Assembly: GCA_030525525.1 (NCBI GenBank)
Contig: JAUNEN010000026.1
Coordinates: forward strand, 1 to 35,401
Direction of reading: 5' to 3'
DNA length: 35,401 nucleotides
Source of the DNA: Erysipelotrichaceae bacterium
GTDB taxonomy: Bacteria; Bacillota_I; Bacilli_A; Erysipelotrichales; Erysipelotrichaceae
A model generated the notes under the pieces. The model saw only the letters and a program-made list of their open reading frames with translations. It ran no database searches and was not told the origin of the DNA. A program made the translations under genes and the position numbers. This document shows positions 745-4,043 of this stretch, in pieces. Numbering within the stretch: position 1 is the stretch's first letter; each line of letters begins with the position of its first letter.

Positions 745-2499
745 TTATTCTTTATCCTTAGCTATTTCAATACCGAGAATATCCAGCTGAGCCTGATCAA
801 CAACGTTCGGTGATTCGCTCATCAGGTCAAGTGAGCTGTTGGTTGTCGGGAATGCGACAACGTCACGGATATTGTCTGTTCCTGCCAGTACCATGACCAG
901 TCTTTCAAGACCGATACCGACTCCGCCATGAGGAGGTGTTCCATAGCGGAAGGCATCCAGGAAGAAGCCGAAGCGTTCCTTTGCCTTTTCCATGGTGAGA
1001 CCGATTGCCTCAAATACCTTCTCCTGCAGTTCCTGATCATGAATACGGATGGAACCGGAAAGCAGTTCATATCCATTCAGAACCAGGTCATATGCACGTG
1101 AGGATACATGCTCGGGATCTGTGAAGAGCTTGTCGATATCTTCTTCATGAGGAGCTGTGAACGGATGGTGGGCAGCGACCCATCTTCCCTCTTCCTCGCT
1201 GTATTCAAACATCGGGAATTCGGTTACCCATAAGAACTTGTAGATGCTGTTGTCGACAAGATCGAGTTCCTTTGCAAGTCTGACTCTCAATGCACCGAGG
1301 GCAGTATTTGCAATCTTCAGGGAGTCGGCAATGATCAGTACAAGATCGTTGTCCTTAAGATTCAGCTTCTCTGTGACAGCTGCTTTTTCTTCTTCGCTGA
1401 GAGGCTTTGCGACAGATCCGGAAAGAACGCCCTTCTCCATCTTGAGATATGCCAGAGCCTTGGCCTTGAAGCCGTGCTTGACAAATTCCTGCAGCTTGTC
1501 GAGTCCTTTGCGGCTGTAGCGGTCAGCTGCGTTTTCAAACTTCAGGGCACTGATCACGCCGCCGTTTTCGATGACATTTTTGAATACTGCAAATTCTGTA
1601 TTTTCAAAAAGCGGTGTCAGATCGGTGATTTCGTTTCCGTATCTCAGATCAGGCTTGTCGGTACCGAATCTTCTGATGCACTCCGCATAAGGAATTCTGA
1701 CAAAGTGATCTTCCAGCTCAAAGCCGATTGTTTCTTTGAAGATTGCCTTCATCAGATCTTCAACTGTCGCAAAGATTGTATCTTCATCGCCGAAGCTCAT
1801 TTCGATATCAATCTGGGTAAATTCAGGCTGACGGTCAGCTCTCAGGTCTTCGTCTCGGAAGCATCTTGCAATCTGGAAATACTTCTCAAAGCCGGAGATC
1901 ATCAGCAGCTGCTTGTAGATCTGCGGGGATTGCGGCAGCGCCCAGAAGCGGCCGTTGTAGATTCTTGAAGGAACCAGATAGTCTCTTGCGCCTTCCGGTG
2001 TGGAGCGGGCAAGAATCGGTGTTTCAACTTCGATGAATCCTTTTCCATCAAGGACACGTCTTGCGATCATGCAGACCTTGTGACGCAGAATCATATTCTT
2101 CTGAAGAACAGGTCTTCTCAGATCAAGATATCTGTATTTGAGACGTGTATCTTCATTGGTGTCTGTATCATCCGCGATTGTGATCGGGCTTGTCTCGGCA
2201 CGGTTGACGATGGTGACATCTTCAGCCAGAACCTCAATTTCACCTGTTTCAAGTTTCGGGTTCGGGTCTTTTCTCAGGACAACTGTTCCGGTGACGGAAA
2301 GAATGTATTCCGAACGGACCTCCTTCACTTTTTCAGCCATTGTCTCATCGAATGTAATCTGGACAATGCCGCTGCGGTCTCTTAAGTCCACAAATACCAG
2401 GGAGCCGAGGTTTCTTCTTTTGGAAACCCAGCCGATCAGTGTGACTTTCTTTCCCGCGTCAGTTGCTCTTAACGAGCCGTTTGCACATGTTCTTTTCAT
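745..2499 (-). CDS. aspS: Aspartyl-tRNA synthetase (AspRS)
   Basis: Class II synthetase that charges tRNA-Asp in the cytoplasm. From the ATG at 2499 it is 584 residues, the normal bacterial-type length. Order: N-terminal OB anticodon-binding domain ([22 protein letters not shown]), class II motif 2 ([19 protein letters not shown]), a GAD insertion typical of bacterial AspRS, and motif 3 ([14 protein letters not shown]) near the end. A longer frame opens at 2517, but the internal start MKRTCANG matches family N-termini, has GGGAGGAG 8 bases upstream, and forms an ATGA overlap with the hisS stop (2496-2498), implying translational coupling. It is the second gene of a T-box-controlled hisS-aspS operon. 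The sequence does not show whether it also misacylates tRNA-Asn. Confidence 0.97.
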
Positions 2500-3767
2500 T
2501 TTGTGCTCTCCTCCCATTCTGCAAGCTGATTCAGAAGTTCTTCATTTTTGAGAGTCAGCTGTGTTTTATCTGCCGAATTTTTGACATTCAGTGTTCCGGC
2601 TGCCACTTCATCCTCGCCAAGGATGACGATGTATTTCGCATTCATGCGGTCGGCGCTCTTGAACTGCGCCTTCAGGCTTCTCTTCACAAGGTTGCCTTCG
2701 CATCTGTAACCGGCATTTCTGAGGACTGAAAGTGTCTTCAGAACACTGTCCCCCACATTGCCCAGTCCAATCACATACACGTCGCATTCATCTTCCCTGC
2801 GGAACGGATAGCCTTCATCTTCAGCCAGTGAGATCAGTCTTTCAAGACCGATCGCAAAGCCGATTCCGCTCATTTCCGGACCGCCGTAGTATTCAACAAA
2901 GTGGTCATAGCGGCCGCCGGCGAAAATGGTTGCCTGGGCACCGCTGTCAGGACGTGTTGAAACGACTTCGAAGACGGTATGTGTGTAATAATCAAGACCT
3001 CTGACAAGTCTTTCATCGATTTCATACGGAATTTCCAGCGCATCAAGACATGCAAGAACACGGATGAAATATTCGGATGATTCCTCATTGAGGTATTCAG
3101 AAAGCTTCGGTGCAGTCTTCATGCACTCTTTGTCATGATCCACCTTGCAGTCAAGAATGCGGAGCGGATTCTGTTCATATCTTCTCTGACAGTCGCCGCA
3201 GAGATCTTCCAGATGCGGTGCGAAGTGCTTCTTCAGAGCTTCACGATAGGCAGCTCTTGATTCATCGTCACCGAGCGTGTTGATCAGAACCTTGATGGAT
3301 GAGATTCCCATTGATTTGACAATGTCATAGCCGACAGCGATTGTTTCGGCATCGATCTCAGGTGTCTTGGCACCGATGTTTTCAACACCGAACTGGGTAA
3401 ACTGACGCTGTCTGCCCTTCTGCGGTCTTTCATGACGGAACATCGGTCCGACATAGTAGAATCTTGCCGGCAGCTCCATCGATCCGTAAAGCTTGTGCTG
3501 ATCAAAAGCACGGATTACACCTGCAGTTCCTTCCGGACGCAGCGTGTAGGATTCGCTTCCCATGTTAAAGGTATACATTTCCTTGTTGACCATGTCGGAG
3601 GAATCGTTTTCACGTTTGAAAACGGATGTATCCTCAAAGTAAGGCGTGCGGATTTCACGGTAGCGGTAAAGGGATGTGATTCTGCGGATCACGTCTTCCA
3701 CATCATGCCATTTGTTGATGTCTGAGGGCAGGATGTCGTAGGTTCCTCTCGGTGTCTGATAGCTCAT
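2496..3767 (-). CDS. hisS: Histidyl-tRNA synthetase (HisRS)
   Basis: Class II synthetase charging tRNA-His; 423 residues, as usual for bacterial HisRS. Seen: the N-terminal start QTPRGTYDILP, motif 2 region MFRHERPQKGRQRQFTQFGVE, the HisRS-specific peptide RGLDYYTHTVFEV, motif 3 GIGFAIGLERL, and a C-terminal anticodon-binding domain (from about residue 330, DVYVIGLG). It is the first gene of the operon, about 18 bases after the T-box terminator hairpin, and overlaps aspS by four bases (ATGA). Transcription is probably controlled by the upstream T-box leader. In B. subtilis a D-Tyr-tRNA deacylase gene (dtd) sits between rel and hisS; it is absent here. Confidence 0.97.
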   Translation of the reverse strand: MSYQTPRGTYDILPSDINKWHDVEDVIRRITSLYRYREIRTPYFEDTSVFKRENDSSDMVNKEMYTFNMGSESYTLRPEGTAGVIRAFDQHKLYGSMELPARFYYVGPMFRHERPQKGRQRQFTQFGVENIGAKTPEIDAETIAVGYDIVKSMGISSIKVLINTLGDDESRAAYREALKKHFAPHLEDLCGDCQRRYEQNPLRILDCKVDHDKECMKTAPKLSEYLNEESSEYFIRVLACLDALEIPYEIDERLVRGLDYYTHTVFEVVSTRPDSGAQATIFAGGRYDHFVEYYGGPEMSGIGFAIGLERLISLAEDEGYPFRREDECDVYVIGLGNVGDSVLKTLSVLRNAGYRCEGNLVKRSLKAQFKSADRMNAKYIVILGEDEVAAGTLNVKNSADKTQLTLKNEELLNQLAEWEESTK

Positions 3768-3784: not shown

Positions 3785-4008
3785 AAAAAACGTCCCTGAA
3801 TCCAAGGACGCTGTATGCGCGGTACCACCTTAGTTTACAGCAGATGCTGTACGCTTGATTCCTTAACGCGGAACACGGATATTCCTACTGCTGTTTCAGA
3901 ATATCTTCTCCCGGGTGTCTGACCTGAATCCGAATCTCAATGCTTTCACCGGACCATTGTCGCTTCTAATCATCCTATTCAGGTTTTCCCGTTCTCTGAA
4001 TTTAAGAT
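3785..4008 (-). promoter_or_regulatory. T-box riboswitch leader of hisS-aspS
   Basis: The minus-strand leader contains the T-box signature AAGGTGGTACCGCG (about 3818-3831), whose bulge pairs with the uncharged tRNA acceptor end. It ends in a terminator, CGTCCTTG-GATT-CAGGGACG plus six T (3785-3810). Stem I can be folded: TTCAGA (3995-4000) with TCTGAA (3895-3900), CGGG (3988-3991) with CCCG (3912-3915), and ACCTGAAT (3977-3984) with ATTCAGGT (3922-3929). The unpaired 3' side of the specifier loop between the last two helices is CAGACA, followed by C: it holds GAC (Asp, 3917-3919) and the overlapping CAC (His, 3915-3917). Uncharged tRNA should favour the antiterminator and let hisS-aspS be transcribed. 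Confidence 0.93.
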
Positions 4009-4014
4009 ACAACG

Positions 4015-4043
4015 ATTATAGTATTTTTCGCTTTTTTGCACAA
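4015..4043 (-). promoter_or_regulatory. Promoter of the T-box/hisS-aspS operon
   Basis: -10 TATAAT (4015-4020) and -35 TTGTGC (4038-4043) on the minus strand with a 17-base A-rich spacer. Predicted start near 4008, just before stem I of the T-box. Confidence 0.7.

Follow-up and report, generated by a model that had tools for sequence, protein, structure and literature searches.

Left open in the T-box literature is the question of whether one leader might read two tRNAs on behalf of an operon that encodes two synthetases. That question is raised by the window under study here, a 35,401-nucleotide stretch of Erysipelotrichaceae DNA in which a T-box precedes hisS and aspS on the minus strand. 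A sequence-only reading of the window had drawn attention to the bases GACAC at 3919-3915 (minus strand), in which an aspartate codon, GAC, and a histidine codon, CAC, overlap. It favored GAC as the specifier, and suggested that CAC might serve as a second one. On the basis of the sequence evidence described below, the answer appears to be that tRNA-Asp alone is sensed, and that hisS follows aspS.

The features of the locus are provided in Table 1. The leader is matched over the full length of the RF00230 covariance model from Rfam (model positions 1-219) with a score of 108 bits versus a gathering score of 93 and an E-value of 3.7e-23. Together with the TIGR00442 and TIGR00459 assignments of the two genes, this match upholds the earlier placement of a T-box ahead of hisS-aspS. 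The plus strand reads cccgggtgtc from 3910 to 3919, and thus the minus strand displays GAC (3919-3917), A (3916), and CCCG (3915-3912), in keeping with the overlap that had been described. Among the relatives of the window's HisS protein, those that bear names are Erysipelotrichaceae, including Bulleidia extructa and Lactimicrobium massiliense.

Table 1. Features of the hisS-aspS locus in the window, and leaders from other genomes that are referred to in the text.
Feature	Position or leader	Strand	Basis and remarks
T-box riboswitch, leader of hisS-aspS	3801..4005	-	RF00230; class I layout with long Stem I, Stem II, stem IIA/B, stem III, and antiterminator
hisS, histidine--tRNA ligase	2496..3767	-	TIGR00442, 459 bits, cutoff 287
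aspS, aspartate--tRNA ligase	745..2517	-	TIGR00459, 760 bits, cutoff 374; hisS ends inside this ORF
Specifier codon GAC (Asp), unpaired	3917..3919	-	Sequence, MFE fold, consensus fold, GAG spacing
Overlapping CAC, judged incidental	3915..3917	-	Its final C (3915) opens the 3' strand of the Stem I lower helix
Stem I lower helix, 3' strand CCCG	3912..3915	-	Partner of 3991-3988; helix covaries across 58 relatives
Stem I lower helix, 5' strand CGGG	3988..3991	-	Sequence, MFE fold, consensus fold
Stem I helix above specifier loop, 3' strand AUUCAGG	3923..3929	-	MFE fold
Stem I helix above specifier loop, 5' strand CCUGAAU	3977..3983	-	MFE fold
Stem II hairpin (GAUAUUC...GAAUAUC) with GAA/AGUA S-turn sequence	3878..3905	-	Rfam alignment, fold
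T-box core GGUGGUACCGCG	3818..3829	-	Sequence and Rfam; UGGU at 3827-3824, predicted site for the tRNA 3' end
Intrinsic terminator hairpin GUCCUUG..CAGGGAC, then U6	3785..3809	-	Read from sequence
Promoter-like TTGTGC-17 nt-TATAAT, just upstream of leader	4015..4043	-	Read from sequence; putative
GACAU variants	L105, L337, L352, L381		
GACGC variants	L119, L123, L160		
GACAG variants	L127, L128, L157, L347		
GACAA variants	L172, L173, L297, L298, L338, L358, L367, L384, L385		
GACGA variants	L296, L376		
GACCU variant	L382		
Miniature T-boxes, hisS-aspS	L448:1321-1456; L449:2781-2916 (-); L451:2778-2913 (-); L452:1332-1459; L453:1327-1454; L454:1326-1453		
Miniature T-boxes, aspS	L461-L464		
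Miniature T-boxes, mostly tyrS	L466, L468, L469, L472-L474, L476		

In the minimum free energy (MFE) fold of the 212-nt leader, the bases CAGACA are unpaired between the CGGG/CCCG helix and the ACCUGAAU/AUUCAGGU helix, which is the arrangement that had previously been folded by hand. Single-sequence MFE folds that include upstream sequence misfold Stem I, and the RNAalifold consensus was taken instead. In the consensus for 58 distinct related leaders, GACA is unpaired and the fifth base, a C, is paired with a G in every leader (58/58). The three pairs below this C-G pair in the lower helix covary (AU/GC; GC/AU/GU; GC/AU/GU/CG/UA). The GAC of the window is unpaired in Stem I, is followed by a purine (A), and lies above the covarying helix, whereas the last C of CAC is located at the helical edge, again as the sequence-only reading had it.

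The closing pair between 3915 and 3988 (C-G) is invariant in the hisS-aspS leaders of the group, and it is the next three pairs that covary. At the same position, the tyrS leaders of the same genus contain either a C or a U (18:10) and the hisZ leaders a U (22/23), and thus a U-A pair is tolerated there. Judging from these alignments, some constraint acts on the fifth C in the hisS-aspS leaders of the group; that a strong pair is favored for closing the loop is offered here as a guess.

GAC holds the specifier position in the covariance alignment, and of the 149 distinct T-box-bearing hisS leaders from the class Bacilli, 126 have GACAC at this position, a frequency that is not due to chance. 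The specifiers of L090, L119, and L127 were read by eye, automatic picking being unreliable there. In L119 the specifier is GACGC, and the GACAC scored by the script sits farther downstream.

The conservation of GACAC was considered as an argument for dual reading and rejected, given that ileS leaders keep AUCAC to a similar degree. Indeed, within the same genus AUCAC is observed in 27 of 30 ileS leaders (22/25 aligned by script and five by eye) and UACAC in 18 of 28 tyrS leaders, neither of which has any link to histidine. In the genome from which the window is derived, NNCAC also occurs in the Tyr, Asn, and Leu T-boxes and in two Ile T-boxes. Whatever the amino acid, CAC results when an NNC specifier is joined through the usual A to a helix that starts with C, and a conserved GACAC thus does not count as evidence that histidine is read.

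A comparison of leaders reveals that the specifiers GAC (hisS), UAC (tyrS), and CAC (hisZ) mostly lie six nucleotides before the conserved GAG of the kink-turn. The GAC of the window displays this same spacing and is in the standard frame. The CAC of GACAC, on the other hand, is positioned two bases closer to the GAG than the tyrS, hisZ, and hisS specifiers to which it was compared, which places it out of frame, and its last base is paired. It also falls outside of the three neighboring frames that are considered by TBDB.

The antiterminator bulge also bears on the choice between the two codons. The conserved T-box core, GGUGGUACCGCG, contains a UGGN bulge complementary to the NCCA end of tRNA-Asp, with U opposite G73. 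Across the 149 hisS leaders the N is either U (99) or C (50), such that UGGU or UGGC is present in 149/149; in the tyrS leaders of the genus it is U in 30/30. The tRNA-Asp of the window genome ends in G73-CCA and its tRNA-His in C73-CCA with a G-1. Both U and C pair with G73, the U of the window by wobble, and neither pairs with C73. The T-boxes of hisZ, which are dedicated to His in this genus, carry CAC in the frame held by GAC in hisS-aspS, and UGGA in 26/26. The bulge of the hisS leaders is thus never the A of these 26 His T-boxes, although a discriminator rule for tRNA-His is not established. TBDB does not match the discriminator for His T-boxes, as C73 can be paired; since His is left out of its bulge rule, it is the hisZ comparison that carries the weight of the argument, which for His is an empirical one. 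A candidate His T-box with UGGA has also been described in Corynebacterium (PMC3896937).

The invariant UGGA was observed in the hisZ leader of the window genome (L004, G000:C49:7407-7648) and in 25 same-genus leaders among L218-L243. It is present despite the C73 of tRNA-His, and the A would have to face either C73 or G-1, which is puzzling.

Natural variants bear on the matter as well. Approximately 23 of the 149 hisS leaders lack CAC yet keep GAC (Table 1), and no hisS leader in which CAC is kept and GAC lost was found among the 149 distinct leaders from the class Bacilli. The variants are spread over several GTDB families (f1, f4, f5, f6, f12, f14, f17, and f21), and thus the loss of CAC has recurred many times, whereas GAC was retained throughout. 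The aspS gene lies downstream in all of them except L347 and L376, for which the stretch examined ends ∼400 nt past hisS; these two are unusual leaders and the least certain of the set. The frame, the bulge base, and the persistence of GAC all point to hisS being under Asp control, as the sequence-only reading had favored. CAC as a second working specifier is not supported by these comparisons: it is two bases out of frame, its last base belongs to a covarying helix, the bulge never carries the A of the hisZ T-boxes of the genus, and it is CAC that is repeatedly lost.

Other explanations nevertheless require consideration. A dual T-box can be envisioned in which the loop slips by two bases and opens the first C-G pair, thereby allowing either uncharged tRNA-Asp (through GAC) or uncharged tRNA-His (through CAC) to induce hisS-aspS. 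The operon does encode both HisRS and AspRS, GACAC is widely conserved, and its fifth base never departs from C in the group. Moreover, Gutierrez-Preciado et al. (2009), as cited in PMC4342826, suggested that both tRNAs might be sensed by the hisS-aspS element through alternative structures, and there is a precedent for a two-codon T-box in Saad et al. (2013), as cited in PMC7778990. Such a dual T-box is improbable here, however, in light of the bulge base, the one-sided loss of CAC, the similar conservation of NNCAC in ileS, the position of CAC outside both the frame of the compared T-boxes and the three TBDB frames, and the separate His T-box that the genome carries on hisZ. In the window leader the second codon is shifted by two with its last base paired, and the two codons are not conserved jointly. 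Slightly less probable again is a sliding double specifier, whereby the helix breathes by one pair, the fifth C being invariant in the genus, and uncharged tRNA-His functions as a weak second inducer.

The invariance of the C-G pair while its neighbors covary, the pair below being mostly A-U, could also mean that the T-box is specific for Asp and that the pair is kept in this lineage for the stability or the folding kinetics of the specifier loop, with only weak, nonspecific tRNA cross-talk. A Lys T-box is partly induced by reduced charging of tRNA-Asn (PMC2916919). Given that, within this genus, leaders of tyrS and hisZ accept U-A at the position in question, such an explanation is quite unlikely. 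There is hardly any likelihood that the element is a His-specific T-box reading CAC only, even though hisS is the first gene and the hisS-aspS element of S. aureus was labeled a histidine T-box in one paper (PMC7927825). Its CAC is out of frame and partly paired, its bulge is unlike those of true His T-boxes, and the ∼23 natural leaders without CAC already contradict it.

The element is, very probably, a class I transcription-antitermination T-box with GAC as its single specifier, which puts hisS under Asp control. The T-box itself, its frame, its helix, its bulge base, and its pattern of conservation are all evident from sequence and covariation. In a related genus, aspS lies behind the same GAC loop as hisS-aspS, and this was counted in favor of the Asp reading. 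As for function, we infer that tRNA-Asp binds and brings about antitermination, and that tRNA-His elicits no useful response. The GUC anticodon of uncharged tRNA-Asp would pair with GAC in the specifier loop of Stem I, and the UGGU of the antiterminator bulge with the G73-CCA end of this tRNA. The antiterminator would thereby be stabilized, and RNA polymerase would pass the terminator into hisS-aspS. HisRS would then be made in step with the charging of tRNA-Asp, and the His codon two bases downstream would be a by-product of an NNC specifier, an A, and a C-starting helix.

Several other unusual T-boxes were encountered. One group, from related families, comprises miniature T-boxes with a short, kink-turned Stem I, a specifier in a seven-nucleotide apical loop, and no S-turn Stem II (Table 1). 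In one GTDB family they precede hisS-aspS (G142, G161, G179, G214, G281, and G283) or, in its genus g82 (G155, G185, G277, and G279), aspS. The Stem I of the Asp miniatures is composed of an outer helix, a UGA/GAG kink-turn, an inner helix of 4-5 bp, and the loop CUGACAA. Covariation supports this hairpin: compensatory change is seen at three of the four inner-helix pairs in a set of six sequences, 99.2% of cells pair, and the covariation score was matched by no shuffle. In another family the same layout is found mostly ahead of tyrS, and ahead of a few further genes as well; here the loop is YU-UAC-RA, enclosed by a mismatch of the A-C or C-C type. As a consensus the loops read YU-NNN-RA, much like the anticodon loop of a tRNA. 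Some 18-45 nt upstream of the loop is a TATAAT-like -10 element, and the distance between Stem I and the CGUUA box is 9-23 nt, such that neither a long Stem I nor an S-turn Stem II would fit easily. Given the terminator-like U-run after the T-box, these leaders probably act through transcription termination. Of the four T-box classes described in PMC10482949, class III is the one in which a short Stem I presents the specifier in an apical loop, but it is described as mostly translational, has a loop of 5-6 nt, and needs Stem II; as judged by sequence, the miniature leaders match none of the four.

In five hisS-aspS leaders (L136, L137, L138, and L139 of GTDB family f9, and L306), a long Stem I with GACAC is followed after 46-50 nt, measured from the specifier, by the T-box core. 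There appears to be no Stem II or stem IIA/B in them, just a linker and stem III. This would correspond to the class II layout, which is glycine-specific according to PMC10482949, here with apparent Asp specificity. Finally, contig C50 of the window genome (G000:C50; L002, L014, and L011) contains two T-boxes (Val GUC and Ile AUC) near a Leu-type T-box before a LeuA-like gene. As read from the translations, on which the LeuA-like call is based too, the genes behind the Val and Ile T-boxes combine an XRE/cupin-like start with an AMP-ligase-like part.

With respect to known systems, the suspicion that GACAC had already been described proved correct: it is characteristic of the specifier loop of hisS-aspS T-boxes (PMC5313534), and Gutierrez-Preciado et al. 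(2009), as cited there, viewed it as interacting mainly with tRNA-Asp. The element of bacilli and lactobacilli considered by those authors shares with the window the operon, GACAC, and the preferred tRNA-Asp, and, as far as the citing papers relate, nothing sets the window element apart. The sequence evidence presented here favors the Asp-only reading, and adds to the published picture the bulge base, the natural variants, and the ileS, tyrS, and hisZ controls. Since CAC invariably arises when A and C come after an NNC specifier, the bulge base, the frame, and natural variants should be consulted before an overlapping His specifier is called from sequence. The window leader shares with the class I T-box of the B. 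subtilis tyrS type (PMC10482949) a long Stem I with an internal specifier loop, an S-turn Stem II, a stem III, and an antiterminator/terminator. It differs in its predicted specificity for Asp, and the AGUA loop-E opposite the specifier is not obvious in it. The two-codon T-box of Saad et al. (PMC7778990) is, as in the dual reading, one leader proposed for two tRNAs; there, to judge by the title, the binding of both was shown biochemically, whereas the second codon of the window fails the available sequence tests. The closest contrast is provided by the hisZ T-box of the same genome and riboswitch family, in which CAC occupies the standard frame and the bulge is UGGA, as opposed to GAC and UGGU in the window.
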